Below are positions 29,161-50,744 of a stretch of DNA of 64,000 bases, piece after piece. Source of the DNA: Bacteroidales bacterium (GTDB taxonomy: Bacteria; Bacteroidota; Bacteroidia; Bacteroidales; UBA4181); assembly GCA_017523725.1 (NCBI GenBank), contig JAFWVY010000023.1, forward strand, positions 1 through 64,000, read 5' to 3'. The translations under genes were made by a program, and so were the position numbers. Position 1 is the first letter of the stretch. The number at the start of each line of letters is the position of its first letter. Under the pieces are notes generated by a model. That model saw only the letters and a list, made by a program, of their open reading frames with translations. It was not told the origin of the DNA and ran no database searches.

Positions 29161-30909
29161 TCAGCAGCTGATGAATTCGAACTCAAAAGTGGCCACCGAG
29201 GCGGACCGGATATTTGCCATTTTTTGTAACTGACTGATCAGTACGGGCATATCTTCGCGACCATCCACGACATTCTTGTCCAGCGAGAGGGTGACACGTT
29301 CCGTCAGATGCTTCCGCTCAAGTTCGGTCCGGACCGTCATGTCCTTGAGGGTATCGCGCCGGAATCCGGCCTGGGTGAAGAACCGGATGCAGAACTGCTT
29401 GAGATCGGCTTTCGTGACGATGCGGTCGTTGGTCTGCATATAGTAGCGGGCCAGCATCTTTTTTTCTTCCGGATCTGTCACCTCGTCCTTCCCGCCGGTC
29501 GGCTTCATCAGCAACCGTGTGGTCTTCTTGTCCAGGTCGCGCGGCGGATTGACGGCCGAAAGCAGGTCTATGTCATTGGCGTAAGCGCCGTCCGTGAAGA
29601 GTGCGGAAAGCCGGATCGGGTCGGCGGATGTCGTGGCGGCGTTTTGTTTCAGAATGGCGTAGATGCCCGATTGCGGTACATTCTCGTCTTTAATGATCGT
29701 CAGAATGTCCTTCAGCACGACATCAAGCCGGCGGATCTTGTCGGCGTTCTGCATCTGGTGAATCTTCTGGAACGCATAGAAGTCGGATTCGTAGCGTTTG
29801 GCCAGTTCGCTGGCCAGCCGGATCAGCTCGTCAGGGTTGAACCTTTCGCAACCGAAGCGGCGGACGTAGAATTTGTCTGCATCCTCGGGAGAAAGTTCTT
29901 CATCGGACACCAGGTTCATGAAGAAATCGTGGTGGTTGTTTTCGGGGGTCTTGCCTGTCAGCAGCCGCAGCCCGCTGTTTTCCTCGGCTTCGAAATTGAC
30001 TTCGTTGGCCAGTTTGACAATGGGCTCCCTGGGAGAGAGCGTAAAATCTTTCCGGATCACGTTGACGGCCGGGAAACAATTGATTATCAAACTTCTTGCA
30101 TCAAAATTGAAGGGCTGGACCATGTCGGAGAACTCGAAGACGAGGTTGATGGCGTCCGACGTGATGGGCCGGTCGAAACTGCCGTCCACCATGAAATAAT
30201 TGATGTTGCGCGAGGTCCACAGGTCAAACCATTGCGTCCGATATCCGAAGAGCAGGCTGTTGTTCAGGAAGGCGTTGGCGTTCGAGAACCAGGAACAGAG
30301 CGGGAACCTTTCGAATTCCCACGGCTTGATGAGGTTCACCTTCTCGTTGCTCCAGTACACGTTCAGGTCGCTGAACCGTACGCCGTCAATGAAGAAACCG
30401 AGGTTGCCGAGGTCGGCTTTCGGATCGGTGAACCGCAGGTTGACGTTCCATTTGTCGGATGCAATCTTGGTGACACTGTTGACGGTCGCCCCGATGATTT
30501 TGGTGTCGAACATCGGTTGGAACGGGAACAGTTCCTTGAGACGCAGGGACTCCCGCTTGACGAGGAAGGTCGATTCTTCGTTGACGTAGCACGGGGACGG
30601 GTCGCCGGCCTGCTTGCCGGTGGCGATGATGGTGAAGGACGGCACCGCCTGGGTCAGGTGATACGGCATGACCAGCTGCTCCAACGTGTCCATCATGCCG
30701 TTCTCGAGCTGCGCCATATCGCGTTTCACGCCGTTTATCTGGTAAACGAACGCCGAAATCAGGATGCCGAGCAGCGGATCCTTCTCGATACCATAGAACG
30801 GCGCGTTCGGGTTGTTGCTGTCCCATTTGCCCTCGCTTTTCCAGAGTTGCAGCACTTTTTCCATCAGGGAATTCACCTGCCGCTGAATATCGTATTCTTC
30901 GTTTGTCAT
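29161..30909 (-). CDS. tssF: T6SS baseplate protein TssF
   Basis: 582 residues, the size of TssF. The N-terminus (residues 30-90: DPLLGILISAFVYQINGV, then LEQLVMPYHLTQAVPSF) follows the TssF pattern in which a helical start precedes a P-x(5)-P-S segment. With TssG and TssK it forms the baseplate wedge on which the tail tube and sheath assemble, on the cytoplasmic face of the inner membrane. It is the last gene of the T6SS run, 12 bp after tssE. Sequence is diverged from proteobacterial TssF. Confidence 0.8.
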   Translation of the reverse strand: MTNEEYDIQRQVNSLMEKVLQLWKSEGKWDSNNPNAPFYGIEKDPLLGILISAFVYQINGVKRDMAQLENGMMDTLEQLVMPYHLTQAVPSFTIIATGKQAGDPSPCYVNEESTFLVKRESLRLKELFPFQPMFDTKIIGATVNSVTKIASDKWNVNLRFTDPKADLGNLGFFIDGVRFSDLNVYWSNEKVNLIKPWEFERFPLCSWFSNANAFLNNSLLFGYRTQWFDLWTSRNINYFMVDGSFDRPITSDAINLVFEFSDMVQPFNFDARSLIINCFPAVNVIRKDFTLSPREPIVKLANEVNFEAEENSGLRLLTGKTPENNHHDFFMNLVSDEELSPEDADKFYVRRFGCERFNPDELIRLASELAKRYESDFYAFQKIHQMQNADKIRRLDVVLKDILTIIKDENVPQSGIYAILKQNAATTSADPIRLSALFTDGAYANDIDLLSAVNPPRDLDKKTTRLLMKPTGGKDEVTDPEEKKMLARYYMQTNDRIVTKADLKQFCIRFFTQAGFRRDTLKDMTVRTELERKHLTERVTLSLDKNVVDGREDMPVLISQLQKMANIRSASVATFEFEFISC

Positions 30910-30921: not shown

Positions 30922-31401
30922 TTACCAGACCACGGTGTTGAATTCGTAATAATAGAACGCATGGGTCTCATCGTTGATCTTGCCTGAAACCGTAATGTGG
31001 ATGATTTTTCCGCGCGACTGGAAATCCATGGAGACCGATACGTCCTTCAGCCGTTTCTCATAACGCTCGATGGTGTGCTTGAGTTCGGTGGCGAAAGTGT
31101 CGCTGGTCCGGCTGTCCCCGATGATCTTCTTGTCGTACAGCGGATTCTTGATGTCGAAAAGCTGCGTGTTTTCTTTGGGATTCAGTTTGTTCTGCACAGT
31201 TTCGAAGAATTTGGCCCGTTCGACGCTGAAGCTTTCGAAGCGGAAGTCCTCCAAGGCGAACCCGAAGTCGGGATCGGCAATGCAGCAGAACTTGTTGGAC
31301 GCGATGAGCATGTCGAGAAAGGCATCGATAGACTGTTTGGTCTTGTCGTTGCCGGATTCGACCATCGGGTAGGATATCCTGAACGGATGCTTGATGAACA
31401 T
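30922..31401 (-). CDS. tssE: T6SS baseplate protein TssE (gp25-like)
   Basis: 159 residues, the usual TssE size. The C-terminal half has the gp25 pattern IERYEKRLKDVSVSMDFQSR, where a helix with R-x-E-x-R-L leads into strands. TssE joins the baseplate to the first sheath ring. It sits between tssK (18 bp upstream) and tssF. No signal peptide. Confidence 0.8.
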   Translation of the reverse strand: MFIKHPFRISYPMVESGNDKTKQSIDAFLDMLIASNKFCCIADPDFGFALEDFRFESFSVERAKFFETVQNKLNPKENTQLFDIKNPLYDKKIIGDSRTSDTFATELKHTIERYEKRLKDVSVSMDFQSRGKIIHITVSGKINDETHAFYYYEFNTVVW

Positions 31402-31419: not shown

Positions 31420-32286
31420 TTAGATGGTCGGACAGAATATCTCTTCGACCGGTTCCGGTTCGGGCACTTCGGCCGGCTTGGGTTTCAGGTCGTCCATGGC
31501 TGTAAGCGTTTCGCCGATGAATCCGATGAATTGACGCAGGAAAGGCTCGATGTCAAGCAGGTTGTATTCCGGCAGGTCGGCACTCCGTTCGAAAACAGGA
31601 TAGCTGAGCACGGTGGCGAGTTTGCTGCAGCGGGAGGCCAGCATGCGCGGTGAATCGTCCGCCCGGAAGTCCAGCAACTGTCCGGCGATGAGTCGCACCA
31701 GCAGCTTGTCCTCCAGTTTCTGGAAACTTTCGTGCTCCAGGATCTTCTGGATCTGCTGCTTGATCTGGTCCACTTTTTCCATCAGGATGAGGGAACTCCG
31801 CGCCGACACGACCGGCAGGATGAAGTCTTCGTCAACGGCACGTCCGTTCGCGTTTTTCAACTTCAGCAGCGGTACGGCGTCGTGAATTTCGTCCAGCGTC
31901 CGGCAGTCGAACACATATTCGTATGCGATGTGCGGGATGCCGCCGCGGTCGTACGATCTGGTCTTGTCACCGATGGAAACCGTGAGATACAGCACGTCAT
32001 CCTTCCGGTCCGGGATGGGCACGGACAGATTCTCCTCGGACTGCGCAATGACAACCTGGCCGGAGGGCAGCATCAGGGTGCATTCGATTTCCCTGATCTG
32101 GATATCCTTGTTCGAAAGGTCATAATTCAGGACGAACTTGCTTTGCGGAACGACCCCGAACACCTGGGTCGCCAGAATCTTGCGAAGTATCATGCGGTGT
32201 TCGCCCAGGTCGTTCTCCATGTCAATGAACGTCTGCGGCGTGATTTCCATGCCGGCATGCCAGTCGATTCTTATGTCTGTATTCAT
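31420..32286 (-). CDS. tssK: T6SS baseplate protein TssK, short form
   Basis: 288 residues. The start IRIDWHAGMEITPQTFIDME matches the TssK opening W-x-E/A-GM-x(2)-P/TPQ-H/T-F. TssK adapts the baseplate to the membrane complex. Proteobacterial TssK is about 440 residues with a phage receptor-binding-like C-terminal domain. Here the last residues (PKPAEVPEPEPVEE) are a low-complexity tail and that C-terminal domain seems missing, so contact with the envelope complex must differ. It lies 4 bp after tssG. Confidence 0.75.
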   Translation of the reverse strand: MNTDIRIDWHAGMEITPQTFIDMENDLGEHRMILRKILATQVFGVVPQSKFVLNYDLSNKDIQIREIECTLMLPSGQVVIAQSEENLSVPIPDRKDDVLYLTVSIGDKTRSYDRGGIPHIAYEYVFDCRTLDEIHDAVPLLKLKNANGRAVDEDFILPVVSARSSLILMEKVDQIKQQIQKILEHESFQKLEDKLLVRLIAGQLLDFRADDSPRMLASRCSKLATVLSYPVFERSADLPEYNLLDIEPFLRQFIGFIGETLTAMDDLKPKPAEVPEPEPVEEIFCPTI

Positions 32287-32290
32287 TTTC

Positions 32291-33064
32291 TTACAGTTGT
32301 GTATTATAATCTAGTACAAGGGGTGCGGTATCGGAGAGGATGAAGGCCTGCTGGAAGTCCTTGATGGCAAAGGTCATCGAGATGGGAACCGGCAGGAACC
32401 ATTCTTGCAGGAACTCAAAGAAGGGCCCGAGCAGGGCCATGAATTCCTGGTGCGTTTTCTGGAGGAGGCCCCGTTTGTTGATGACGAAACGGATGTCAAC
32501 GGGCGAAGTATGCTCCCATGTCACCGGACAGCGGAACACGTGCGAGAGCAGGTCGGAAATAAGCCGGATGTCGCCCCGGATCTTGGTCACATGCAGCAGC
32601 ATGGGCGCGAACCGCCGGATATACACATTGGGTTCGTTCTCCAGGTCGAAGTCGAAGAATTTCTTCAGCATGTTGCAGACGCTCTGCCGGACGGCTTCCG
32701 AGGCCGTCTTCTCAATCTGCAGGGACAGGTTGAAGATGGCCGTGTCGAAGGGCATGAAATAGCTCTTGATGGTCTGCTCCTCTTCCATGATTTCATTGAC
32801 GCGCGCCGTGAACTCGCGGCCGCTCTTCTGCCGCAGCTCCTGTTCATCGAAGAACAGTTTTTCGGGCAGCACCCGGTAGATGCCGTTGCGCGAGGTGAGA
32901 ATCTGCCTGGCGCCCGGATCGCAGCGTTGCAGGTCGTTCACGTAGTTTCTGCGGAAGAAACTGTCGTGATGGACCGTCCATTCGTCCACGTCCGGATAGT
33001 ACTGCGCAAGCAGGGTTTCCGCCCGCAGGTCTTCCATGTCCACATATTTGTCAACAACAATCAT
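32291..33064 (-). CDS. tssG: T6SS baseplate protein TssG
   Basis: 257 residues. Overall layout and position (between the other baseplate genes) fit TssG: an all-alpha/beta protein with HVTKIRGDIRLISDLLSHVF in the middle and LVLDYNTQL at the C-terminus. Two TssG copies clamp one TssF in the wedge. It begins 2 bp after the E1-like gene. Sequence similarity is weak by eye, so gene order carries much of the call. Confidence 0.65.
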   Translation of the reverse strand: MIVVDKYVDMEDLRAETLLAQYYPDVDEWTVHHDSFFRRNYVNDLQRCDPGARQILTSRNGIYRVLPEKLFFDEQELRQKSGREFTARVNEIMEEEQTIKSYFMPFDTAIFNLSLQIEKTASEAVRQSVCNMLKKFFDFDLENEPNVYIRRFAPMLLHVTKIRGDIRLISDLLSHVFRCPVTWEHTSPVDIRFVINKRGLLQKTHQEFMALLGPFFEFLQEWFLPVPISMTFAIKDFQQAFILSDTAPLVLDYNTQL

Positions 33065-33066: not shown

Positions 33067-34284
33067 TCAGACCTTTTCTTGGTTAATAAAAGGATAGCGT
33101 CCGGCATCACCCGTCAACTCGATATGGTACAGACCATGTTCGGTCGTCACCTCGATCACATCGTAGTAAGGAATTCCTATTTCTCTTAAAGTCAGACGTT
33201 TGTATGGGAAATTCCGGTCGATGTTCTCATAGGTGTTCTGGTTGAGTTCGGTGCGCGGCCTGGTGTAAAGATCGTAATTTTGGTCGATATAATCCGGAAT
33301 TTTCGATTCCGGCAGCATCGGCGTGAACTTCTGGTTGTCGTTCTTGGAGACAATGATGTCCACAAACTTGTCGTTCCGGAGGTTGATTTCCACTTCGTTG
33401 ACATTCAGGCAACGCCGAATCTGCGAGAAGGCGTCGGAGATGCGTGTGTCGGCACTGAGGCTGGACATCTGGAAAACATCGTTCCAGCATTCGTGCGAGG
33501 GACAATCTTCGTCGAAAGAGCGGCTGTCGTATACGGCGATGCGGTTGTGCATGCCCTCGTAATGCAGCCATTTACCGGTCAGCGGCGTGAAAAGGCCGGA
33601 GTCCACTTCTTTCTTGTGAAGCAGTTTCATGGCTTCCTGCACCTCTATGGCGCCGATGATCGAGGCGATGACCGGTGTGGTCGGCGTGCGGCCGGCCTGT
33701 TCGTTGCGCTGGGCCACGCCCGCACAGGACAATTGCTGCGAGATATGTTGTTTGGCGTGTTCAGTCAGGCTGCATTCATAGCAGTTTTCGTTCTGCCTGA
33801 AGATGCGTACGTTGCCCGTCAGATTCTCGATGCCGCCGTCGATCCACGGCACGTTGGCCCGCATGCACAGCCGGTTCAGCTGCAGCCGTGCCAGCCGGCT
33901 GTCCAGACAACCGATGACGACATCCATTTTGCGGTAGAGCCCCAGTCCGACTTCGGAGGCCAGATGGCCGCAAACGCACTGTACGTTGATTTGCGGGTTG
34001 ATCTCCCGGATTCTTTCTGCAGCGACTTCGGCTTTGTACAGACCTTTGTCTGCATCTTCCGGGCGGAACAGGATGGAACGCGTGAGATTGGAGAACTCAA
34101 TGGTATCGAAATCGACGATATAGATGTTGCCAACCCCGAACAAGGCCAGATTCTTCAGTGCTTCGTTGCCAAGTGCACCGGCACCGACCACCATGACACG
34201 GGCCTGCCGTACCGTCTCGTTCTTGTACCACGAGAGCAGGTCGAAGACTTCTTTGCCCCAGGTTTGCAGTGTCCCGTTTTCCAT
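33067..34284 (-). CDS. E1-like ubiquitin-activating enzyme (ThiF fold, UBA3-like)
   Basis: 405 residues. The ThiF adenylation domain has GAGALG (34-39), IVDFDTIEFSNLTRS (Asp58, Asp60, Arg69) and Lys84. C168-x2-C171 and C261-x4-C266 are candidate zinc ligands. Cys187 in QQLSCAGVA falls 16 residues after Cys171, where human UBA3 has its catalytic Cys 14 residues after the same pair. TTPVIASIIGAIEVQEAMKL (202-221) is the UBA2/UBA3-type helix. About 100 C-terminal residues look like a beta-grasp ubiquitin-fold domain (KRLTLREIGIPYYDVIEVT), which in eukaryotic E1s binds the E2. Expected role: adenylate and thioester-link the ubiquitin-like protein at 42027-42341. Cytoplasmic; set between tssG and the outer-membrane protein gene. 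Confidence 0.85.
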   Translation of the reverse strand: MENGTLQTWGKEVFDLLSWYKNETVRQARVMVVGAGALGNEALKNLALFGVGNIYIVDFDTIEFSNLTRSILFRPEDADKGLYKAEVAAERIREINPQINVQCVCGHLASEVGLGLYRKMDVVIGCLDSRLARLQLNRLCMRANVPWIDGGIENLTGNVRIFRQNENCYECSLTEHAKQHISQQLSCAGVAQRNEQAGRTPTTPVIASIIGAIEVQEAMKLLHKKEVDSGLFTPLTGKWLHYEGMHNRIAVYDSRSFDEDCPSHECWNDVFQMSSLSADTRISDAFSQIRRCLNVNEVEINLRNDKFVDIIVSKNDNQKFTPMLPESKIPDYIDQNYDLYTRPRTELNQNTYENIDRNFPYKRLTLREIGIPYYDVIEVTTEHGLYHIELTGDAGRYPFINQEKV

Positions 34285-34289: not shown

Positions 34290-35456
34290 TTATTTAAGTG
34301 TATAGACCAGGCCGATTTCAATGGTCGGCAGGAAAGTCCTGAGACCGTCCCAGGCACTGTCCGCCGTGTAACCTGTCGCATCTTCGACCGGTTTATGGTC
34401 GATCATCGGTGTTACGGCATATTCACACCGGATGCCGGCTTTGAACAGCAGACTCGATGCGTAGCGCACCGGCCGCAGGCAGCCGGCGGGGATGTAGGTG
34501 CCGAATGCGGCGTGTGCCCACAGGGCGAAAGAACGTGCTTCGGGTTCCGCTGCAACGGTCTCCATATTGACTGGCAGGACGACCCTTCCGGGGGTCTCCT
34601 CGCCATGGGGTGAGACAATCCGATAGTCGGAACTGAGGCAGATCGACGGTGTGACGCCGAATTTGCCGTAAACCGTGATTCGGCTGGACGAAGGCTGGCC
34701 GAAGCAGCATTGTACGGGGAAGTCCAGATATTTGACGGTCATTTTTTCCTTGACACGGTTCAGTGTCTGGTTGTTGTCAAACCAGAAGAACGTGTTTTCG
34801 TCCGGTGGCGCCAGTACGGATATGGCCCGCCAGCCGACGCCGGCTTCCATGGAGAAGGGGAAGTTCAGGCCCCACCGGCCGGTGCCGAAATACAGCGCAG
34901 CCTGTGTGAACCATCTGAAATCCTTGACGGTCATGTCTTCGTTGTCCCGGTCGTAGAGTACCGGTCCGGCGGCCGCGGTGACACCGATGACCGGCGTCCT
35001 GGCGGGCAGGCCGATGAAGAAAGACATGTCCCCGTTCCTGCCGCCCGTCACAGCCTCCTGCGGCCTGTCCTGCCGGGCGGCGCGGTCTAACTGCAGGTTG
35101 TGAAGCGTCATGTTCAGGGCTGTGATGGTATTGTTCAGCGAATCAATCTGGATTTCCTTCTGCATGTACTTTTCGCTCAGCGCTTCGGCTTCGGCCGAGG
35201 CCTGCGTCAGCGTGTCGATCAGCCGGTCCCGCCTGGCGACAGCTGCTTCGAGCGTTTTAATCTGCGCCTGGAGTTCGTCGACGACCTGGTATTTGACATT
35301 TTCCATGTAGTCTTCGACCGTCCCCTTGTAATAGTCCACTTTCAGTTCCTTCCCGTCTTTCGTCCTGCCGTGGATGCTTTGCATCTGCGACTGGGCGCAG
35401 ACCTCGACGGCCATGCAGCACAGGCTCAGCGTAATCAGAAAACAGACGTGTTTCAT
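34290..35456 (-). CDS. Outer-membrane beta-barrel-like protein with coiled coil (T6SS-linked)
   Basis: 388 residues. A signal peptide ends near EVCAQS. Residues ~30-130 are a coiled coil (VDELQAQIKTLEAAVARRD and following heptads), then an alternating barrel-like region to the C-terminus, which ends in IEIGLVYTLK, a typical barrel last strand. It may span the outer membrane, with the coiled coil reaching into the periplasm, and so stand in for TssJ-type envelope anchoring. This role is inferred from the operon position only; no named family is recognised. Gene follows the RING/FHA gene by 20 bp. Confidence 0.6.
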   Translation of the reverse strand: MKHVCFLITLSLCCMAVEVCAQSQMQSIHGRTKDGKELKVDYYKGTVEDYMENVKYQVVDELQAQIKTLEAAVARRDRLIDTLTQASAEAEALSEKYMQKEIQIDSLNNTITALNMTLHNLQLDRAARQDRPQEAVTGGRNGDMSFFIGLPARTPVIGVTAAAGPVLYDRDNEDMTVKDFRWFTQAALYFGTGRWGLNFPFSMEAGVGWRAISVLAPPDENTFFWFDNNQTLNRVKEKMTVKYLDFPVQCCFGQPSSSRITVYGKFGVTPSICLSSDYRIVSPHGEETPGRVVLPVNMETVAAEPEARSFALWAHAAFGTYIPAGCLRPVRYASSLLFKAGIRCEYAVTPMIDHKPVEDATGYTADSAWDGLRTFLPTIEIGLVYTLK

Positions 35457-35476: not shown

Positions 35477-37792
35477 CTATTTGTCTTTTTCGATATAGGT
35501 GAAGGTGGTTGCGCCAATGGTGAAGGCGTCGCCGTGCGACAGCCGGACGACCGAACCTTCTTCCAGCGTCTGGCCGTTGTCGTTCATCACGGTGCCGCCT
35601 GCCAGCGCCTTCGCGAAGGGCAGGTCGTTCTCGATATAGAGTTCCAGTTGCTTTGCCGCGATGTTCTCGCTTTTGTCCCATGTCATGGCGATGACGCAGT
35701 CTGGCGAACTGCCGATCGTGACATGGTGTGCGCCACCGATGGCGTTCATCCATTTGTAGATGGCGATGTCACGTTCTTTGGTGGAACCTTCGACATGGAG
35801 GAAATAATTTTCGGATGCATACTGGACGATGGCGATGATGGCACCGAGCAATGCGGCGTACAGCATAAAACCGTAGACGCCTATGATGTCTTTTTTGATC
35901 AGATAGATAACTGCAAAGGTCAATGCCGCGGCAATCAGGCTTCCAAGCACAGCCTTGCCGGTGGATATCTCCGACTTGACGGCAAGCAGCCAGGTGACGG
36001 CGATGCCGAAGAGCAGCCACGGCACCCAGTCGAGCCACAGGCAGTTGCCCACCTTACCAACGGCGATGATGGCGATGGAACCGATCAGGAAGGCCAGGAA
36101 ACCCATCACGGCGTTGCCGACGGACCGTCCCAGGATTTGCAGAATGCGTCCAACGGTTTTTTTGCGGAACTCTGACAGGAAGCTGAATACCAGTGTGGTG
36201 AAGAAACCCAGCAGCGCGCCTCCCCACAGGAGAGGTGTGATCTTTCCGGCATAGGCAGCTACCTGATCCCGTTGGAACAGGGTCGTGATTTTGCCGATCA
36301 GTCCGTCAAACAGATGGCAGGGCAGAATCAGTTGCAGAACCATCCATGCCAACAGACCGGCGACGAGGCCGCACAGCATCCATTTGGTGAAGTTCGGCGC
36401 GTTCTTGCGGTCGGCCAGATTTTTTTTGTTATAATAATAAATGCCTTCCTTACAGTTGTTTATGCCATATTCCGGGCATCGGTTCTGGTTCTCCTCCCAG
36501 CATTCGATGTGCACGGTATGCTGGCACTTGGTGACGATGACGTCGCCGTCCTCGAAGTCTCCCTTGCAGTAATAGCACTGCTGCAGCACATGGTCTTTCT
36601 GGGCGCGCGACTTGTTGTAGGTCTTGACATGGCGGAGCCGGAACAGCCGGTAGAGGAGGAACGGCAGCAGGAACTGCAGGATGAGGTAAAGGACGGCCAG
36701 GCAGACGAGACCGGCAATCAGACCCTGCAGCAGGTCCGGACGGCCGGCAGCTGCTGCATCTCCGGGAAGGACGACCAGCGGCGCCAGCACAGATCCCAGC
36801 GCATAGGGCATGTCTCCGGTCGCGTTGTACTTGTCGGCTTTCAGCCGCAGGTCCGATGTCTGTCCGTTATAGGTGGTCTTTTCCCGGATGGAATACACCA
36901 GCCGGTAGTCCATGGCGACCGAATCGACGCTGCCGGCAAAAACGGCGGTGAGGGAATCGGCCGAAAAACTCGGGTAGATTTTTCCTTCGTCGGCGCGGTG
37001 GCAGATGAACAGCATCTCATTCTGCATCTCCTGGTCGAGCCGTTCGCCGAAATAGACGCAGTAAATGGCTTTCAGCTGTTCGGGGATGGTGGTGTAATCG
37101 TTGTTCGCGAATTTGAGTTTCGCATCGTAAAAAGAAGCATCGGTGTACTGGTCGATGTCACCGGTAAAGATGAAGAAATATTTGTCGGACAGGCTGTCGG
37201 TGGCCAGTTCGGCGTTGAATCCGACATCGGGCAGATACCGATTTTTTGGCGGCACATTGTTGATTTCCTGAATTTTGGAGATAAGAGCCGAATAAATGGA
37301 CAACTGCTCGTAGGCCTGCGTGGTCATGGCGTCGCTCTTGACGTAATTCTCGATGCTTTCGCCGGGATAGACCCGTTCGGTCGGAGAGATTTCGTCACCG
37401 ATGGCCGCGATGTAGATTTTGGCGGTTTTCGGCAGAGCACTGGCGAATGCCACAATCGATTCTCTGAGCGCCAGATAGTTGGCGAGCGATATGTTGGCAC
37501 TTTTGTCGGCCAGTATGAGGATGTCTATGTTGCGTGAGAAGTCACTGCGCCGACTGATGTCAAGCAGACTGTCGATGCTGAGCGGCGTCTCGGTGCCGGC
37601 GGTCAGTTCTGTGCAGACCAGGTCTCCGATTTCGAGGTCTGGGATGAACTGCTTCTGTCCATTCCGCATGAACTTGAAATCCACGCTGCGGCGGGCGCCG
37701 TTCCCCCGGGCATTGCCGAATTCGATGCTTGTCTGGGCCTGCGTGGCGAGCACCATGCAGCAGAATAGAAACAATAAGCTAATTCTTTTCAT
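35477..37792 (-). CDS. VWA-like / RING-H2-like / polytopic membrane / FHA protein, E3 candidate
   Basis: 771 residues. Signal peptide (1-20). A periplasmic VWA-like domain (~88-300) has ILADKSAN (degenerate MIDAS, Asp96-x-Ser98-x-Asn100) and FFIFTGDID. TM1 lies at ~354-381, followed by a basic stretch that places the next part inside. A RING-H2-like finger follows: Cys406, Cys409, Cys423, His425, His428, Cys431, Cys439, Cys447 (C3H2C3), with CQHTVHIEC and a Pro after Cys439. The last pair spacing is x7 rather than x2. Six more helices follow (~471-658), then a cytoplasmic FHA-like domain (685-768: VTIGSSPDC, HGDAFTIGATTF). With E1, E2, JAMM and Ubl genes alongside, an E3 ligase role is the best guess. 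A TssN/TssR-like structural role is also possible. Confidence 0.75.
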   Translation of the reverse strand: MKRISLLFLFCCMVLATQAQTSIEFGNARGNGARRSVDFKFMRNGQKQFIPDLEIGDLVCTELTAGTETPLSIDSLLDISRRSDFSRNIDILILADKSANISLANYLALRESIVAFASALPKTAKIYIAAIGDEISPTERVYPGESIENYVKSDAMTTQAYEQLSIYSALISKIQEINNVPPKNRYLPDVGFNAELATDSLSDKYFFIFTGDIDQYTDASFYDAKLKFANNDYTTIPEQLKAIYCVYFGERLDQEMQNEMLFICHRADEGKIYPSFSADSLTAVFAGSVDSVAMDYRLVYSIREKTTYNGQTSDLRLKADKYNATGDMPYALGSVLAPLVVLPGDAAAAGRPDLLQGLIAGLVCLAVLYLILQFLLPFLLYRLFRLRHVKTYNKSRAQKDHVLQQCYYCKGDFEDGDVIVTKCQHTVHIECWEENQNRCPEYGINNCKEGIYYYNKKNLADRKNAPNFTKWMLCGLVAGLLAWMVLQLILPCHLFDGLIGKITTLFQRDQVAAYAGKITPLLWGGALLGFFTTLVFSFLSEFRKKTVGRILQILGRSVGNAVMGFLAFLIGSIAIIAVGKVGNCLWLDWVPWLLFGIAVTWLLAVKSEISTGKAVLGSLIAAALTFAVIYLIKKDIIGVYGFMLYAALLGAIIAIVQYASENYFLHVEGSTKERDIAIYKWMNAIGGAHHVTIGSSPDCVIAMTWDKSENIAAKQLELYIENDLPFAKALAGGTVMNDNGQTLEEGSVVRLSHGDAFTIGATTFTYIEKDK

Positions 37793-37793: not shown

Positions 37794-39428
37794 TCAATTT
37801 CTTTTTCTCCTTAACCATTCTTTCATTTGATTCATTGTCACGACCGCCTTCACGCCGTCTTCGGGAGGAATGCAGATATCCAACTCTTCATCCGTCCGGT
37901 ACACGACGTAGAACAATTTGCCGCTGAGCTGCGAAGCATAGGCAGTCGCAATGGCGTCGGTTCCAGCCGTGGTATGGACGACCAGGCATCCGACGGTGTC
38001 ACCGTTGCTGTATGGCAGGCAGTTCTCTACGAAAAGCGTCCGGGAAATCTTGTGTCCGCTGAAATAGCCGATGACGCCTTCAGATGAGTTGTATATGAGG
38101 TCGTTGATTTGATTGATTGCTTTTCCGGAAAGACTGATGCCGCACAAGTTCCCGCTTTCGACGGGAATCTTCATGTAGTGCGGATTTTCGGCGCTCTGTT
38201 CATCGTCTGCGGTGACAGGCTGCCGGTTTCGTTCGCGTTCGGCCTGCCGCGCCTGTTTGTACATTTCCTCGAAGGAGAACCACTTCCTGACATCGTCCTT
38301 GTTGTTCATCCGTCCGTCCGTCTGCGGCGTGAAACAACCCAGCTGGAGCTCCATGCTGTTGGTGTCGATGACCAGGGCGATCAGCCGGTTGGCAAATTCG
38401 GTATAGACCAGTTGGCGCTGGACGATCAGATCCTGGTTCGACAGGAAGAGGCCCAGTCCGGGATGGGAGTGGATCCAGCCGGTAAGCACATAGTCCCTGC
38501 CGGTTTTCGAGGCCAGGCTGTTGATGAGCGAACCCATGCTGACGCCGATTTTCTTTCCGAAGTTGAGGCTGTATTCGCCGAAATCGGCGTCGTCGCCGGG
38601 CTCTACCATGTATTCCACGCTGATGTCAAAGCGGTCCTGGCTTCCTTCGGCGTAATCCCAGCAACCGACCAGGTAACATCCCGTTTCGTTGGTCCGTTCG
38701 CCGTTCTCCAGCGAACGGTTGAAAAACGAATAGACTTTCTTGACAAGGTCGATGCTGAAATACATCCGGTTGATGCCCGTGTTTTCAAAGACTTCGTTCA
38801 AATCGAACGTCAGGTATTCTTCCGGATGGGACAATACATGCTGCAGACCTTTGGCGTAATGTTCCGACGTGTCTTCGATGACGGTGAAAACATCGTCATC
38901 CGTCTGTTTTTTCCGGAACCAGAATCTCTGTCCGGTTTTCTTTTTCCGTACCATGAGCACCAATATGGCAATGGCGCAAAGCAACAATGCAATGATGATG
39001 TTCTGCATAGTGACGAAACCCTTTCCTTCCTTGCCGGGCGTTCCGGCAGCGGCCGGGTCTTCTTCGGGTGATGTGCTATTGTCCGTCCCGGCCGGCTTGA
39101 GCCGGACGGCGATGCAAAGCTGGTGCTCCGCGTCGTTGAACGTGCAGTCGAGGAAGATTTCGCCGTTGCGGTCGGACAGCCGTTCGATGGGGAAGGTATA
39201 GGTGCCCGGCATGAAGAGGCACGTGCTGTCCTGGTTCCATGCAAAAGCTTCGCAGACCGGGGCGCATCCGCTGATGGCGGCTCTTGAGAATCCCAGCCTT
39301 CCGGACGGTACGCTGATGGTCAACGTCCGGCCGTCATAGGTCGCAGTCGGCCCCTCGGCGCGGCATATGGCCGGCAGCAGCAGAGAGACTGCCAGAACAA
39401 CCGATATGATGCATGAGCGGTGTTTCAT
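37794..39428 (-). CDS. Membrane-anchored JAB/JAMM isopeptidase
   Basis: 544 residues. A signal peptide (1-24), a periplasmic domain of about 115 residues and a single helix (142-160) followed by RKKK place the rest in the cytoplasm. The JAMM metalloprotease motif is complete: Glu248 in NETG, His320, His322, Ser330 and Asp333 in HSHPGLGLFLSNQD (H-x-H-x7-S-x2-D). A second, motif-less MPN-like region follows (~410-530, with GVIGYFSGHKI). JAMM enzymes cleave isopeptide bonds or mature ubiquitin-like proteins; here it would remove or process the Ubl. It ends 1 bp before the RING/FHA gene. Confidence 0.88.
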   Translation of the reverse strand: MKHRSCIISVVLAVSLLLPAICRAEGPTATYDGRTLTISVPSGRLGFSRAAISGCAPVCEAFAWNQDSTCLFMPGTYTFPIERLSDRNGEIFLDCTFNDAEHQLCIAVRLKPAGTDNSTSPEEDPAAAGTPGKEGKGFVTMQNIIIALLLCAIAILVLMVRKKKTGQRFWFRKKQTDDDVFTVIEDTSEHYAKGLQHVLSHPEEYLTFDLNEVFENTGINRMYFSIDLVKKVYSFFNRSLENGERTNETGCYLVGCWDYAEGSQDRFDISVEYMVEPGDDADFGEYSLNFGKKIGVSMGSLINSLASKTGRDYVLTGWIHSHPGLGLFLSNQDLIVQRQLVYTEFANRLIALVIDTNSMELQLGCFTPQTDGRMNNKDDVRKWFSFEEMYKQARQAERERNRQPVTADDEQSAENPHYMKIPVESGNLCGISLSGKAINQINDLIYNSSEGVIGYFSGHKISRTLFVENCLPYSNGDTVGCLVVHTTAGTDAIATAYASQLSGKLFYVVYRTDEELDICIPPEDGVKAVVTMNQMKEWLRRKRN

Positions 39429-39440: not shown

Positions 39441-40196
39441 TTAGATGGAAGGCAGTTCCTCCTGGGGTTGCTGGGTTGTCTGGGCCTTTTTGAGCTGTTT
39501 CTTGATTTTCAGTTTCTGCATGACCATGTTGAACGCGATGAACACCATGGCGGCTGCCGTGATAATCTTGAAAATCATGTCGCTGAGCGATTTGCTGATG
39601 ATGTCGGTGGTCGAGATGCGTGTGTAGGTCTCCTTGACGGCATTCCATGTGGCGGTCAGGGCCTCGTTGTCATCGAAGATCTGCCGGTTGCTGTTGTATT
39701 CCACAGTTGCTTCGCTGTTGAAATATTCTTCGGCTTCTTTCTTGACGAGCTTCAGCGAATCGATGCGCTTGTTGGCGACATAGCGCTCGGCCTGTTGCTG
39801 CATGACCTGCAGCCGCGCCAGATAGGTGTCGAACTTTCCGGAGAGCTTGTCGATAACCTCCTGCTGTGCCCTGGCGGCCTTCAGCTCCTCAATGTGTTTC
39901 CCGATCTGCTGGTACAGGTCGGTGTAGTTCACATAGATTTGATGGAGGTTCTTCTGGTAGCGGATGATCTCGCTGTAGTCGCTGTAACACGATTCCACCA
40001 GCTTGATGTGCGCCTTGTAGGTATTTTCGTACCGGTCTGCGTCTTCGGCTGTGACAATCTTGTTGTTCAGTTCGACAAGCTCTTTGTAATATCCTTCCAG
40101 TTCGGCTTTGACGTACTCATCCTGGGCCCGGCTGACGGCAGGCAGGGCTGTAAGCAGTACGGCAAGAAGACAGGCGGTACCCAGTATTTTTTTCAT
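39441..40196 (-). CDS. Periplasmic coiled-coil protein with C-terminal membrane helix (T6SS-linked)
   Basis: 251 residues. A signal peptide ends near VSRAQ. Long helical, coiled-coil-prone periplasmic part (~25-200), then one membrane helix (~208-226, MIFKIITAAAMVFIAFNMV) and a short basic cytoplasmic tail with KKQLKKAQ. Type I topology suits a strut between inner membrane and periplasm. The layout recalls Bacteroidetes TssO/TssP membrane-complex proteins, but I cannot confirm homology. Its neighbours are the 397-residue exported protein and the JAMM gene, 12 bp away on each side. Confidence 0.6.
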   Translation of the reverse strand: MKKILGTACLLAVLLTALPAVSRAQDEYVKAELEGYYKELVELNNKIVTAEDADRYENTYKAHIKLVESCYSDYSEIIRYQKNLHQIYVNYTDLYQQIGKHIEELKAARAQQEVIDKLSGKFDTYLARLQVMQQQAERYVANKRIDSLKLVKKEAEEYFNSEATVEYNSNRQIFDDNEALTATWNAVKETYTRISTTDIISKSLSDMIFKIITAAAMVFIAFNMVMQKLKIKKQLKKAQTTQQPQEELPSI

Positions 40197-40208: not shown

Positions 40209-41402
40209 TTATTTGATGAGTTTCTTGGCGGTTTCGTAATTGTTGAGAATCTTGGAATCCAACCGGCTGGCGCACGATTGCGACAATCCTCTGATGGTGG
40301 CGTCGGTGGCGCTGACGAGGCTGTCGAAGGCCGCTTTCTGCGAGGCCTTGGTGGCTTCGTCCCGGGCGGAGATCCAGTCGTTGGCCAGGCCGTTGAGCCG
40401 GCTCGTGGCTGCTCTGATCTCGGAGTTCAACGCGGCGGGATCGCACGGTGCCGGAGCTTCGGCGGCGGCGCCACCGCCGGCCGAGGTGTCGTAGGCCTTG
40501 ATCCGGTCCATGCAGCTCATCAGGTCGTCATAGGCATACTGCAGTTCTTCGCAGCCGCTGTTGTCGAAACGGCGGGCGTCGATCTTGGAGAATTGCTCAA
40601 CCAGCAGTTCCTTGCATTTTGCCAGCAGTGCGCGGCCCGATTTCTGGAGTTCTTCCATCTTGGCTTCACCGGCGGCGAAAACCGACAGATATTCCTTGGC
40701 AATGACCAGCAGCTGCTCGTTCTCCTTGCAGGTGTCGATGGTCAGATTGATCTCAATCTCAATGTCGGAGCCGATGTAATTCAATACTTTGCCTTTAATC
40801 ATCGGCATGGGGTTCTTGAGGATGACATACACCTTCTTGGCCCCTTCCTCCAGCTTGAAAGATATTTCCATCTCCGATTTCCCGTCCAGCGGAAGAATCT
40901 GACGGTCGATGGGTTTGGACAGTTTCATCGGCGAGGTCAGTTCGCATCCGTCGTAATTGCAGCCGCGGGCGTCTGCAAACGTCTCGACGGAGGAGTCGTA
41001 CAGGTTGAGGAAACTGATCTGTTCGTTGAACGTCGCGGTGGATTTGAAGGCACCGCCCCGTTTCTTGAAATAATCCTTGAAATCTTCAATTTTGATTTTG
41101 TTCTGCGGCAGCCACACGAATTCGTTGGCCCCGGCCGCGGCTTTCGCCGGCTGTGCTTTCTTGCCTTTCCCGGCCGGTTCTTCCGGTTTCGGGGCGCTCA
41201 GTTTGAACGTCATGACGCGGTCGGTCTTGCTGAACTGTGCCGTGAGTTCCAGGTCGACCGAAGGGATGCGGTCGTTGTAGCCCTTGACGGTGATGGTCTG
41301 CGTAACAGGCTGGTCCGGTTCGAGGTTGAAGGTGTAAGCGGATTCCGCGAATGCCATGAAGGGCATCGCGGCCAATACTGCGGTTGCTAATTTCTTGATC
41401 AT
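40209..41402 (-). CDS. Exported protein of unknown function (T6SS-linked)
   Basis: 397 residues with a signal peptide ending at MAFAES and no other membrane segment, so probably periplasmic. The N-terminal half is beta-rich; a low-complexity patch (GKGKKAQPAKAAAGA) sits near residue 80. The C-terminal ~170 residues are helical with several Cys and a Gly/Ala/Pro-rich insert. No family recognised. Lying 8 bp after the E2-like gene and 12 bp before the coiled-coil membrane protein, it probably belongs to the envelope part of the secretion machine. Confidence 0.6.
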   Translation of the reverse strand: MIKKLATAVLAAMPFMAFAESAYTFNLEPDQPVTQTITVKGYNDRIPSVDLELTAQFSKTDRVMTFKLSAPKPEEPAGKGKKAQPAKAAAGANEFVWLPQNKIKIEDFKDYFKKRGGAFKSTATFNEQISFLNLYDSSVETFADARGCNYDGCELTSPMKLSKPIDRQILPLDGKSEMEISFKLEEGAKKVYVILKNPMPMIKGKVLNYIGSDIEIEINLTIDTCKENEQLLVIAKEYLSVFAAGEAKMEELQKSGRALLAKCKELLVEQFSKIDARRFDNSGCEELQYAYDDLMSCMDRIKAYDTSAGGGAAAEAPAPCDPAALNSEIRAATSRLNGLANDWISARDEATKASQKAAFDSLVSATDATIRGLSQSCASRLDSKILNNYETAKKLIK

Positions 41403-41410: not shown

Positions 41411-42007
41411 TTAGTTTAGATTGTTTCTGAGTTCTTTAATCCATCCGTTGGGCTCGGCCTGCTCCAGCACCCATTCGGCCACTTTCAGGTCTTCCGGGAA
41501 TGGCGGTGTATTCTGTGCGTGGTATTTCTCGTATTTCAGATACAGCATCACGCGGTCGACATACCAGGCCAGGTCGGTGAACGTGCCGCAGGCCGGCGTG
41601 TTCAGACACACATGGCCGGCAAAGTCGCCGTAATACCGGATGTTCGGATGCCACGGATGCGGAATCTCCCGTCCGTCCCCGTCGGTCGTCAGAAACCGGA
41701 ATTCCAGTTTGCTGTCGATGGCGGGATAGTTGTTCGGAATTTGGATGACCATGCGGAATTCGTCTCCGAAAACCGGCCGGTTCCATCCGTCTCCGTCTGC
41801 AGGAAGGACGCCGCAGAACGAGTGCACCTTGAAAACGACCTCGTACATGGTGGGGAGATGGTCGGCATTGCGGCGCCTGACGGTATAGGCAATGTCCGGT
41901 TCGTCCCTGAACCTTGCGTCCATGGCGGTCCACTCATACATCAGCCTGCGGTTCTTGCCCGTGAAGCGGATGTTTCTATACCGGTCTATTTCCTGGTGCG
42001 GATCCAT
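41411..42007 (-). CDS. E2-like ubiquitin-conjugating enzyme
   Basis: 198 residues, UBC fold. The N-terminal helix (RRLMYEWTAMDARF) is followed by strands, including FRMVIQIPNNYPAIDSKLEF, which parallels the F-x-I-x-F-P-x2-YP-x(3)-P core of E2s. Then comes His120-Pro121-Asn122, the HPN motif that builds the oxyanion hole, and Cys134 in GHVCLNT, corresponding to the catalytic Cys of ICLD in canonical E2s. The HPN-to-Cys distance is four residues longer than usual. It would carry the Ubl, encoded 19 bp upstream, as a thioester. Cytoplasmic; start at 42007. Confidence 0.88.
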   Translation of the reverse strand: MDPHQEIDRYRNIRFTGKNRRLMYEWTAMDARFRDEPDIAYTVRRRNADHLPTMYEVVFKVHSFCGVLPADGDGWNRPVFGDEFRMVIQIPNNYPAIDSKLEFRFLTTDGDGREIPHPWHPNIRYYGDFAGHVCLNTPACGTFTDLAWYVDRVMLYLKYEKYHAQNTPPFPEDLKVAEWVLEQAEPNGWIKELRNNLN

Positions 42008-42026: not shown

Positions 42027-42341
42027 TTATCCGGCAATCGGATCCGAAATGATTTCGAGTGTCTCTCCCGGCTTGACATTGTAGTCGAGCAGCGATTTCC
42101 TGGATCTGCCGACCCTGGGCTGCAGGATGATGTCACGTCCGGTGGCTTCGTCCTTTTTGCCGAAGAAATACTCCGTCGGCACATAGTCCACCATCTCGGG
42201 CATGTCGAAAATCCGGGTGCCGGTGTTGTCAGCGGCTTTCCGCAGATTGCTCATCAGCGTCTCAAGTTCGGTGTTCGGATCGGTCACCTTGAATTTGATG
42301 GTTTTGTTCTTGTACCTTAAAAATACGAAAAAATCGTCCAT
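42027..42341 (-). CDS. Ubiquitin-like protein with C-terminal Gly
   Basis: 104 residues. A beta-grasp layout: FFVFLRYKNKTIKFKV is the first hairpin, then a helix, then the end LLDYNVKPGETLEIISDPIAG (positions 84-104). The last 21 residues align without gaps to ubiquitin 56-76: LxDYN, then TL, two hydrophobic strand residues, and a final Gly at the Gly76 position. Gly75 is Ala here. No residues follow the Gly, so no processing is needed before E1 adenylation. About 25 extra residues lie between helix and last strands. The E2 gene follows by 19 bp. YukD-like relatives are possible. Confidence 0.82.
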   Translation of the reverse strand: MDDFFVFLRYKNKTIKFKVTDPNTELETLMSNLRKAADNTGTRIFDMPEMVDYVPTEYFFGKKDEATGRDIILQPRVGRSRKSLLDYNVKPGETLEIISDPIAG

Positions 42342-42943: not shown

Positions 42944-42950
42944 GCCGGTC

Positions 42951-46986: not shown

Positions 46987-47418
46987 TTACGAAACGATTT
47001 CTATGATGCCGCCAAAGGCGCAGTTCAGTTTGCAGGTATTGAGCAGCGCCGGCTGGTTCTCGATAAGCAGGTCGGTTTTGGGCGGAGCCCATGGTGCGGG
47101 GATGACCGGGGTGCAAGGCATCGGTGTCAGGGTGCCCAGATTGGCCGCCGTGGCCGCTGCCACCTGCGGGTTGGCCATCGACTGGCACATGCCGAACGGC
47201 GGGATGTTAACCATGGGTTCCTTGTCCATGATATTGCCCATCGGCACGCCGCCTATCTGGACGGTACGCGAGGGCAGCACCACCAGCGAGGAGGGCGCCA
47301 TGCCGAAACTGCACTTCATGTTTACGCCGCTGCCTACGAATTTCTGGACAACGGGTGTGCGCGGTATGTCGGGGCCTTGCTCCAGCGCCTGCTTGATTTC
47401 GAGAAAGAAACTAGACAT
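46987..47418 (-). CDS. DUF4280 PAAR-like spike tip protein
   Basis: 143 residues. The family text is clear: VNIPPFGMCQSMANPQVAAA, then TPMPCTPVI, and ENQPALLNTCKLNCAFGGII at the end. DUF4280 proteins are PAAR-like and are thought to cap the VgrG spike and hold cargo. Four Cys could bind metal at the tip. It begins 5 bp after vgrG and is followed 1 bp later by the Cys-rich gene, which supports joint loading of cargo. Confidence 0.85.
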   Translation of the reverse strand: MSSFFLEIKQALEQGPDIPRTPVVQKFVGSGVNMKCSFGMAPSSLVVLPSRTVQIGGVPMGNIMDKEPMVNIPPFGMCQSMANPQVAAATAANLGTLTPMPCTPVIPAPWAPPKTDLLIENQPALLNTCKLNCAFGGIIEIVS

Positions 47419-47423: not shown

Positions 47424-49769
47424 TCAGTTGATTTTGGTGAGCTTAGAGTTGATGTCCAGTCCCATGCCGCCTTCGATGGAACCTTTGCCGGTACTTTCCG
47501 TTTCCAGGGTGTAGGTTTTCTTGCCTTTCAGGATAAGGTCGCCATCGGTTGCCATGCCGCATTTTTCCTTGGCACTGATCGCCGCATATTTGTTGCTGAC
47601 GAGGTAGACTCCCTTCTCGTTGCTGGGAAGTTGGCCCAGAAGGAGTGCACCTGTCGGTTCGCTGTTTCCGTCATAGCCTGACGGCGAAACCTGTAATACC
47701 GCCTTGTCGCGGACAAGATGCAGATGGCTGCCGTCCCCGGTGAAAGATCCGTTTTCGTCCATGGGGCCGGCACCGACGAAGAAGTCGTCTTGTACACGGA
47801 TATCGGCTTTCTGGTGGATGCGGGAGTTGACGTTGGCGAAGTCCTGGTAGAATTCCATCGTATCTTCTGAAATCGACTGCTTCGCTTTGAACTGGATGGC
47901 GTTGCCTGCGTCCAGCACGATGTCTTGTTCCGCCTTCAGTTCGATGTTGCCTTTGGACTCGAGGCGGATGACCTGGTCGTCGGTGGACAGCGTGATACTG
48001 TAGTTCTTCGTGTTGTTGTCGTATATCTTTATGTATCCGCCCTTTTCGGTGTCGTGGATCTCGACCGTATGACCGTTGCGGGTCCGAAAGGCCTTGCATT
48101 CGTTGTTCTTGTTGGTGCCGCCTTCGTATTCGTCCCAGCCTTCTGCGTTCTCGTTGTAGGTCCCTTTGTCTTCCACCCAGGTTTCCGGCGGGTTCTGGGC
48201 CGCCGAATTACGGACGGAACCCATGACAAACGGAGCTTCCGCGTTGCCGTGGTAGAAACCGACCATCACCAGGTCGCCGATTTCCGGGATAAAGTAGCAT
48301 CCGGTGGAATCCATACCTACATAAGGCTGCAGCACGTGGATGAACGGCGTATTCCATTCGGTGTTGGCAACGGGGCCGAACTGTTTGTCGCCCACTTCCT
48401 GCCACAGCAGTCGCACGCGGACACGTCCCAGTTTCTCCGGATCGACGTTGTCGGTGACCACGCCGATCTGCGGCTGACTCCTGGGATAGGTGTCCATGTC
48501 GCCGTACATCGGGACGCCGTTCGCATCGCGGGCCGGATAGGGCGGGTAGGTGGATTTGGCCGCCATGGCTTTGAACCGGCAGCGGACGACGTCCGCGTTA
48601 CGCCGTATCCTTTCGTCCCTGGCGCCCCATTCGTAATCCAGGTCGATAATCCTGAGCGGTTCATGGTCGACGTTCTCGCCGGTGGTCGTCTCGTCCACGA
48701 TGACGATGGTGCTGCCGAGGCGCAGTTTGCCGCACTTGGTTTCGCCCGAGCAGAGCATCATGCCGGCTTTCAGGCAGTTGTGATTGACGGCGGTGGCCAC
48801 GTTGGGCGTCCGGTCATCTTCCTGGTTCTCGGGCAGGTTCACGTCGGCCGATTCGGTGTCGCTGATGACGACACTGCCCTTGCCGAAGAAGTCGGCGGAG
48901 ACTTCGTAGGTGGAGTCCGCCATGGCGTGGATGGATTCTGTCTTGGCCTGCGCGCACTGCGCTTCATCGGTTTCTCCGACAATCTCCATGCTGGTCCATC
49001 CGGTAGCGAAACTCATGTCACTCAGGAGAACACCTTTGTGCTGGGCCAGTTGCAGGTCGTAGCAGTAGCTTTCGATGCCCGCCTGGTTGTACAGCCGGAT
49101 GGGATCGCCTTCGTCCGGCATCTGGCCGAATATGACCTTGCCGCCCTCCGAATAGAAGAACTCTCCGTAGCGTTTGGCCATGCGGACGATGAAATCGTAG
49201 GTGCTCTCGTTGTACCGGACGTTGTAGCCCGAGGCGTGCGATGCGGTCTCCCGTGTCTTGACCTCGGCGTCGAGCAGCGGGTTGCCGTCGGCATCCTTGA
49301 ATTTCGCCAGCCGGTCCTTGATGAGTTCGTCCAGCGGATAGAACTCATAGACTTCGCAGCCGGGGTGGTCTTTCATCACGCAGTCGGGACTGAAGGCGGT
49401 GCAGATGATGCGCCAGGCCGTGTTGCCGATGTGCTGGAACTGCACTTTCGTGATGAATCCGACGAAGAAATCCGGATTTTCATCGGTGATTTCTTCGCCG
49501 TTCTCATCGGTGTAGGCGGTTGAGATGGCGCAGTGAACCTTTTTCCCCAGCAATTCCTGACGGAGGGAGAATGAAATGTCGTCGTTGGATTTCGTCAGCA
49601 TGTAATCCCCCAGGTTGTTCTGCAGGAAGAACACGAAACTGTTGGGTTGCAGCAATTTTTTCCTCAGATGGAAGTAGGTGCAGTCGAGTCCGCTTCCTAT
49701 GTCTTCGATGGATTTGTCATTGATTTTCAATGACAAATCGACCAATCGGAATCCTGTGGCTGGTCTCAT
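47424..49769 (-). CDS. tssI: T6SS spike protein VgrG
   Basis: 781 residues. The gp27-like part fills about the first 420. The gp5 OB-fold follows, with IGVVTDNVDPEKLGRVRVRL (437-456) and then TPFIHVLQPYVGMDSTGCYF and PEIGDLVMVGFYHGN, the classic VgrG block. A beta-helix needle with ITLSTDDQVIRLESKGNIEL and its neighbouring repeats ends the protein. No extra enzymatic C-terminal domain is seen. It forms the trimeric spike that carries effectors, and lies 12 bp after the second Hcp gene. Confidence 0.92.
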   Translation of the reverse strand: MRPATGFRLVDLSLKINDKSIEDIGSGLDCTYFHLRKKLLQPNSFVFFLQNNLGDYMLTKSNDDISFSLRQELLGKKVHCAISTAYTDENGEEITDENPDFFVGFITKVQFQHIGNTAWRIICTAFSPDCVMKDHPGCEVYEFYPLDELIKDRLAKFKDADGNPLLDAEVKTRETASHASGYNVRYNESTYDFIVRMAKRYGEFFYSEGGKVIFGQMPDEGDPIRLYNQAGIESYCYDLQLAQHKGVLLSDMSFATGWTSMEIVGETDEAQCAQAKTESIHAMADSTYEVSADFFGKGSVVISDTESADVNLPENQEDDRTPNVATAVNHNCLKAGMMLCSGETKCGKLRLGSTIVIVDETTTGENVDHEPLRIIDLDYEWGARDERIRRNADVVRCRFKAMAAKSTYPPYPARDANGVPMYGDMDTYPRSQPQIGVVTDNVDPEKLGRVRVRLLWQEVGDKQFGPVANTEWNTPFIHVLQPYVGMDSTGCYFIPEIGDLVMVGFYHGNAEAPFVMGSVRNSAAQNPPETWVEDKGTYNENAEGWDEYEGGTNKNNECKAFRTRNGHTVEIHDTEKGGYIKIYDNNTKNYSITLSTDDQVIRLESKGNIELKAEQDIVLDAGNAIQFKAKQSISEDTMEFYQDFANVNSRIHQKADIRVQDDFFVGAGPMDENGSFTGDGSHLHLVRDKAVLQVSPSGYDGNSEPTGALLLGQLPSNEKGVYLVSNKYAAISAKEKCGMATDGDLILKGKKTYTLETESTGKGSIEGGMGLDINSKLTKIN

Positions 49770-50351: not shown

Positions 50352-50744
50352 TTATGCCCACTCGTTCGTGTAGGTGACGGAGCCGTTGGTGATTTCCCTG
50401 CAAGAGAGGACAATCTCCTCGTAGTGGCCCATCTTGTCTTCCCACAGTTCGACGAAGTCGACGCAGTAAGCATCCGTGAAGGAGATTTTCTTCATCAGAT
50501 TGCCGCTCTTGGTTTCGTTGAAGACGATAGCGCCGTTCTTTGCCAGATTCGGGGCGATCATCCAGTTCAGCAGATCCGGATTGCCGTCGTTCAAGGCTTT
50601 CACGCGGATCGTAATCTTGCCGCCGCGCGGGATGCCGGACATCTGGCCTTCGACGTCGGTCGCCTGGTTGAAGGAATAGGTAACCATCATGACCTCGCGT
50701 TCGGCGAGACCGTCAACTTGTAATGAAACAGGTGTTGTTGCCAT
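50352..50744 (-). CDS. tssD: T6SS tube protein Hcp
   Basis: 130 residues, typical of Bacteroidetes Hcp. No signal peptide. Family-like features are the N-terminal strand VSLQVDGLAEREVMMVTYSF, the conserved RGGKITIRVKAL and the FTDAYCVDFVELWEDK strand region. Hexameric rings stack to form the tube expelled by sheath contraction. It follows tssC by 40 bp and is followed by the hairpin at 50302-50336, consistent with high expression. Confidence 0.88.
   Translation of the reverse strand: MATTPVSLQVDGLAEREVMMVTYSFNQATDVEGQMSGIPRGGKITIRVKALNDGNPDLLNWMIAPNLAKNGAIVFNETKSGNLMKKISFTDAYCVDFVELWEDKMGHYEEIVLSCREITNGSVTYTNEWA

Follow-up and report, generated by a model that had tools for sequence, protein, structure and literature searches.

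An E1-like activating enzyme of a Bacteroidales bacterium is encoded within the operon of a type VI secretion system (T6SS), together with a ubiquitin-like protein (Ubl), an E2, a RING protein and a JAB peptidase. This setting is of greater importance than the cysteine and the C-terminal ubiquitin-fold domain (UFD) of the enzyme, which had first drawn attention to its gene. The Ubl-conjugation pathway itself is well supported as a predicted system, and we consider it probable that it constitutes a complete, self-contained and reversible pathway, which modifies a component of the baseplate or of the membrane complex of the T6SS. As the whole pathway is built into the operon of the machine, it suggests that protein tagging, a process normally thought of as eukaryotic, helps to build or control the contractile toxin-injection machine of a gut-type bacterium. 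Sequence, structure prediction and gene order show the parts of the pathway with their catalytic residues, the operon and how it recurs, and its mutual exclusion with TssN. Bacterial sets of Ubl, E1, E2, RING and JAB, as well as the T6SS of Bacteroidota, are already known; the new aspect is their union in one conserved operon. No system joining the two was found in the literature that we searched, and an earlier notice is possible (e.g. Burroughs 2011, Gong 2025).

Organization of the operon

The E1 gene lies on the minus strand of the window, that is, the entire stretch of 64,000 nucleotides that was analysed, and forms a single open reading frame of 405 codons, translating to 405 residues. 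A plus-strand reading of the same interval was ruled out, being interrupted by a stop. The gene is part of a one-strand operon of about 26 kb, in which 23 minus-strand genes, spaced by 1–63 nt and free of internal stops, occupy 55160 to 29161. It is separated by 5 nt from the preceding gene and by 2 nt from the TssG gene. The upstream part of the operon encodes ClpV, TssB, TssC, two Hcp proteins, VgrG and a PAAR-like protein, and proteins of the TssG, TssK, TssE and TssF types follow directly downstream of the E1. A promoter scan returned no excess over shuffled sequences. The assigned features, in the order of transcription, are:

52665..55160, minus: ClpV/TssH ATPase, first gene of the operon (open reading frame, homology across T6SS loci)
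52171..52623, minus: TssB sheath protein (homology across T6SS loci)
50785..52161, minus: TssC sheath protein (PF17541, 3.5e-105)
50352..50744, minus: Hcp/TssD tube protein (homology across loci)
49782..50288, minus: second Hcp/TssD (PF17642, 1e-11)
47424..49769, minus: VgrG spike (PF04717, 5.8e-15)
46987..47418, minus: PAAR-like tip protein, DUF4280 (PF14107, 4.7e-31)
42027..42341, minus: Ubl of 104 residues, β-grasp fold, C-terminus -DPIAG (model and Foldseek)
41411..42007, minus: free E2 with the UBC fold, WHPN at 119-122, catalytic Cys134 (UQ_con match and conservation)
40209..41402, minus: exported protein, function not assigned (position conserved, sequence weakly conserved)
39441..40196, minus: exported helical protein with a C-terminal TM segment (conserved position, hydropathy)
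37794..39428, minus: JAB/JAMM peptidase with a signal peptide and one TM segment at 142-160 (PF01398, 7.7e-5)
35477..37792, minus: candidate membrane E3 with an N-terminal vWA-like region, a TM segment, a RING (406-447), further TM segments and an FHA region (weak Pfam matches)
34290..35456, minus: exported protein with a signal peptide, a coiled coil and a barrel-like C-terminus (fixed position between the RING and E1 genes)
33067..34284, minus: E1-like Ubl-activating enzyme (ThiF/E1 core, Cys187, UFD-like C-terminal domain at about 267-400)
32291..33064, minus: TssG-like baseplate protein (so called from its place in the operon and its homology with the TssG-position gene of TssN-type loci)
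31420..32286, minus: TssK baseplate protein (TIGR03353, 9.2e-9)
30922..31401, minus: TssE/gp25 baseplate wedge (PF04965, 8.9e-9)
29161..30909, minus: TssF-like baseplate protein (weak PF05947 match, homologues in TssN-type loci)

A block of variable effector-type genes occupies 42362-46985, and the Ubl gene comes directly after it, ahead of the E2. The block opens, just after the PAAR gene, with a Cys-rich protein of 373 residues (45864-46985, minus) bearing a weak match to Amidase_3 (E 0.019). It is followed by a 795-residue protein (43473-45860, minus) that gave no significant Pfam match and carries, close to the C-terminus, the zincin motif HELLHQLNLRH. The latter protein looks like a T6SS effector, with the 169-residue product of the following gene (42951-43460, minus) as a possible immunity partner.

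Sequence features of the E1-like protein

The protein matches the ThiF/E1 family of Pfam (PF00899, E 4e-54) and possesses the residue set of the adenylation domain (GxGxxG, D, N-x-x-R, K, D). The positions G34, G36, G39, D58, N66, R69, K84 and D128 are invariant, also when MoeB is included, the reference for which was the E. coli sequence (identical to 1jw9). The cysteine pattern that had been described from the sequence is indeed there: C168-x2-C171 is followed by Cys187 exactly 16 residues past C171. The zinc site is made up of Cys168/171 and Cys261/His264, with C261-x2-H264 as the second pair in place of CxxC. Nine full-length members of the family, 42-67% identical to the query, were aligned, and C168, C171, C187, C261 and H264 are invariant among them; the first three are also retained in two more distant sequences aligned with MoeB.

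The conservation of Cys187 had been put forward as part of a test of an E1 against a MoeB/ThiF-type sulfur-transfer protein. The residue is conserved, but it aligns with Cys187 of E. coli MoeB, and on its own it is therefore not diagnostic of an E1 as against a sulfur-transfer enzyme. The two proteins differ in a loop of the form G-R-x-[PA]-T-T-P that is inserted after Cys187 relative to MoeB. The predicted model and the MoeB alignment place roughly 15–20 residues between Cys187 and the next core helix (204-223), and neither revealed a separate helical catalytic-cysteine domain at Cys187. Since only this short loop separates the cysteine from the helix, the layout is nearer to that of UBA5, Uba4 or MoeB with an added UFD than to that of UBA3. 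The original prediction of a UBA3-like E1 thus holds for the E1-like enzyme, and UBA3 is its best structural match, whereas the catalytic-cysteine domain of UBA3 is absent. In substance it was right: judged from its sequence, the product is E1-like and activates the Ubl of a conjugation pathway, with predicted thioester activity.

The operon has no second E1-type gene. The homodimer suggested at first is a putative arrangement and was put too firmly; the N-terminal Arg of MoeB, moreover, is missing in the T6SS clade. A phage or plasmid origin of the gene was considered and rejected, as a search of IMG/VR returned no relative and a search of PLSDB gave no full-length relative, with partial matches over the E1 core only.

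The C-terminal domain

The AlphaFold model of the E1 has a mean pLDDT of 71.5, with values of 77–93 in blocks covering most of 261-300 and 351-400, and a region of low confidence (pLDDT 48–61) at residues 301-350. With the whole chain as query, the best Foldseek match was UBA3 (2nvu_B, E 2.5e-17). In the structure alignments (VIA-align), the rows for 9dqb_B (17..393), 2nvu_B, 9jtc_A and 4ii2_A, which are the SUMO E1 (UBA2), the NEDD8 E1 (UBA3), UBA7 and Uba1, respectively, run through the UFDs, with the UFD taken at its usual place in each chain. Pfam and PDB profile searches with the C-terminal region gave chance-level matches only. A direct hhalign comparison with the UBA3 UFD, the sequence of which had been confirmed beforehand, was not significant (probability 6.7), yet the two are in register, with RPNLSKTLKELGL paired against FPYKRLTLREIGI. 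The C-terminal domain, spanning about 267-400 or some 135 residues with its insert, is likely to be UFD-like on the strength of this model of moderate confidence. The β-grasp assignment made earlier is accordingly supported in part, by structure alignment and not by sequence matching, and the domain is longer than the 100 residues originally given.

The Ubl, E2, JAMM and RING partners

All the features expected of such a cassette are present: a Ubl with a C-terminal glycine, an E2 with HPN and Cys, a peptidase with the JAMM residues (E/HxH/S/D) and a RING-type zinc finger. The Ubl was modelled with a pLDDT of 89.9, and its Foldseek neighbours are ubiquitin, SUMO and the Ubl domain of the ESX protein EccD. 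Its I-A-G tail is identical in nine T6SS-linked copies, and its T6SS-free relatives match YukD (PF08817). The gene is easily overlooked in simple calling of open reading frames because its frame stays open far upstream of the likely start. The E2 has a weak match to UQ_con (E 0.01), with relatives reaching 2.7e-8. Its HPN and Cys134, the latter 12 residues past the Asn, are invariant in 12/12 sequences.

In the JAB protein E248, H320, H322, S330 and D333 are likewise invariant in 12/12 sequences. Hydropathy places a signal peptide and a TM segment ahead of its JAB domain, and a TM segment between the vWA-like and RING regions of the candidate E3. From this predicted placement, the RING and FHA regions, as well as the JAB catalytic domain, are predicted to be cytoplasmic. 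The Pfam matches to RING, FHA and vWA are weak, those to RING falling below cut-off. The zinc ligands of the RING are conserved in T6SS-linked homologues and lost in two genomes (G557 and G463), where the region is U-box-like.

Recurrence of the cassette

Full-length relatives of the E1 are rare, being found in 5 of 393 Bacteroidales genomes, counting that of the window, in another 3 of 395 genomes from the phylum, and in 6 rumen-type MAGs. L008-L013, G251 (two contigs), G395 and G057 share the gene order Ubl-E2-x-x-JAB-RING-x-E1-TssG-K-E-F, complete or partial, judged as far as each contig extends. The run from the Ubl through the E1 into TssG-K-E-F is seen, again complete or partial, in ten loci of four Bacteroidales families plus rumen MAGs.

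Three genomes (G027, G557 and G463) carry an E1-Ubl-E2-JAB-RING cassette with no T6SS structural genes adjacent to it, and hence the cassette is not tied to the T6SS by nature. In G557 (L025 5174-19901, L026) its neighbours are a PAAR protein, giant eCIS_core proteins and an nSTAND1 NTPase; a stretch of G463 (L027/L028) matches this cassette, the neighbouring genes having been checked in G557 only. In G027 (L020/L031) more than one JAB-type gene surrounds a single cassette, and an SrfB-like gene lies downstream. A minimal operon was observed in G579 (L029/L030, about 19813-22138 of the joined stretch), consisting of a YukD-like Ubl, an E1 and a zinc-ribbon protein, with no E2. The E1 of G579 keeps the N-terminal Arg of MoeB (RYNRQ, R14), which is missing in the E1s of the T6SS clade, and this operon may represent an earlier stage.

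Relationship to TssN and the T6SS of Bacteroidota

The known membrane complex of the Bacteroidota T6SS is TssNQOPR, in which TssN has a Ubl-like domain of the EccD type that is proposed to dock the baseplate (PMC10781749). TssC was detected in 16 of the 393 Bacteroidales genomes. TssN accompanies it in 7 of these and the E1 in 4, both together in 0, and neither in 5 (in G009 and G248 the TssC contig is perhaps too short to show the E1 or TssN). In the TssC tree, a branch with support of 100/100 parts the E1 loci from the TssN loci. The core protein TssN (PF17555) was found neither in the window's genome, which is 99.5% complete, nor, above cut-off, in G251, G395 and G057. The locus also lacks a match to TssR (PF17643), a family that is hard to detect (PMC10781749), with one sub-cut-off match elsewhere in the window's genome.

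These data suggest that the cassette replaces TssN, and do no more than suggest it because five TssC-positive genomes have neither TssN nor the E1. One genome, G267, falls within the TssC lineage of the E1 loci, yet has neither gene, and the cassette is hence not obligatory in this lineage. The T6SS loci of G267 (L063/L064), G256 (L065) and G339 (L067/L068), devoid of both TssN and the Ubl cassette, are adjoined by genes for a Ser/Thr kinase and FHA proteins, and in G256 and G339 also by PP2C-like genes; such loci are possibly a third regulatory type.

Comparison with known systems

Prokaryotic Ubl-E1-E2-RING-JAB cassettes were reportedly described by Burroughs, Iyer and Aravind in 2011 (Mol Biosyst 7:2261), who are also said to have predicted C-terminal UFDs in such E1s. 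The present system shares with them the five activities, a separate E1, a RING-type E3, a JAB peptidase and, in its T6SS-free relatives, a YukD-like Ubl. It differs in encoding the Ubl and E2 separately, in its transmembrane RING and JAB proteins, and in the T6SS structural genes that are interleaved with it. Comparable sets have been summarised for the FtsH-ternary conflict systems (PMC7159879). The Bil and Bub systems similarly combine a Ubl, E1, E2 and JAB, and BubCD structures are among the structural matches of the E1, a Bub-type E1 (9eav) aligning over the core only (12..270). In contrast to them, the present system has a RING E3, membrane anchoring and a linkage to the T6SS rather than to a defence island.

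With UBA3 the E1 shares the adenylation core, a zinc pair followed by the Cys, and probably a UFD-like C-terminus; unlike UBA3 it is bacterial, has CxxH as the second zinc pair, and is not co-encoded with an NAE1-type partner. It has in common with UBA5, Uba4, MoeB and ThiF a compact core with the Cys on a short crossover loop, and is set apart from them by the additional UFD-like domain, a longer loop with the TTP motif and a cognate HPN-type E2. The secretion machinery itself resembles T6SS subtype iii in its ClpV, TssB, TssC, Hcp, VgrG, TssE, TssF, TssG and TssK. It departs from that subtype, characterized by TssNQOPR (PMC10781749), in that neither TssN nor TssR was found above cut-off in the window's genome, in its separate TssC lineage and in the Ubl cassette. 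Furthermore, the Ubl-like domain of subtype iii is fused within TssN, whereas the Ubl here is free and predicted to be conjugatable.

Proposed function and alternatives

We infer the order of the reactions, and a T6SS baseplate or membrane-complex protein as their target. The E1 would adenylate the C-terminal glycine of the 104-residue Ubl (-IAG) and probably take the latter onto Cys187, after which the UFD-like domain would hand it to Cys134 of the free E2. The membrane-anchored RING protein, with its RING predicted to face the cytoplasm, would then guide the Ubl to its target at the inner membrane, and the JAMM peptidase, likewise membrane-anchored, would take it off. Through such reversible tagging the injection machine could be controlled in its docking or assembly at a membrane complex in which the RING, JAB and exported proteins stand in place of TssN.

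A more specific form of this proposal, which by analogy is conceivable though we hold it only tentatively, is that TssNQOPR has been replaced in this T6SS lineage by a membrane-bound Ubl-conjugation apparatus. The Ubl, once conjugated to a membrane protein, could dock the baseplate in the manner proposed for the TssN domain, and the JAMM peptidase would reset it. As no sequence relationship was detected between the Ubl and the Ubl-like domain of TssN, the docking idea is an analogy.

Alternatively, the targets might be the cargo, with Hcp, VgrG, PAAR or effectors bearing the Ubl as a mark for loading or for the masking of toxicity, which the JAB peptidase removes. The position of the Ubl gene, directly behind the variable effector-type genes and before the E2, is in keeping with this, as is the presence of VgrG, PAAR and Hcp in the same operon. 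We nevertheless regard it as unlikely: the effector genes vary among the loci while the cassette is constant, and components of the machine are favoured over effectors as targets because the E1 gene is fixed beside TssG-K-E-F and the RING and JAB proteins are predicted to be membrane-anchored.

It is less probable still that the cassette serves antiphage defence or a stress response, as a Ubl system akin to Bil, Bub or CBASS-Cap2 that travels as a passenger in the T6SS operon and has its site of action elsewhere in the cell. Conflict systems are known to contain E1-E2-RING-JAB-Ubl sets (PMC7159879), the T6SS-free cassettes exist, and E1-E2 fusion models of PADLOC match the adenylation domain of the E1. 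These models match only that part of the protein, with no match for the E2 or Ubl; the E2 is encoded on its own and has HPN, and the cassette is adjoined neither by a regulator nor by a defence effector. Against a passenger role also stand the order with T6SS genes, kept across distant Bacteroidales, and the mutual exclusion of the E1 and TssN.

Lastly, a MoeB/ThiF-type sulfur-transfer adenylyltransferase with the Ubl as sulfur carrier, the alternative that the original prediction had named, is highly improbable and was discarded: ThiF and MoeB give the top NCBIfam scores and Cys187 aligns with that of MoeB, but the scores reach no more than about half of the equivalog cut-offs (ThiF 134.9 against 275.25; MoeB 122.9 against 266 and 112.9 against 376.55), the enzyme has the extra C-terminal domain and the GRxPTTP insert, an E2, a RING protein and a JAMM peptidase are co-encoded, and cofactor-pathway genes are absent next door.

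Implications

Until now, the ubiquitin-like pathways of bacteria have mostly been interpreted in terms of antiphage defence or stress. If modification of the T6SS is confirmed, a complete E1-E2-E3-peptidase pathway fixed within a contractile injection machine would add a third use to these two, and would show how reversible protein tagging might assemble or reset a nanomachine of this kind. The cassette might also explain how one lineage of the Bacteroidota T6SS manages without TssN. It would, moreover, offer a genetically simple setting in which to study the origin of E1-E2-RING relays before the eukaryotes.
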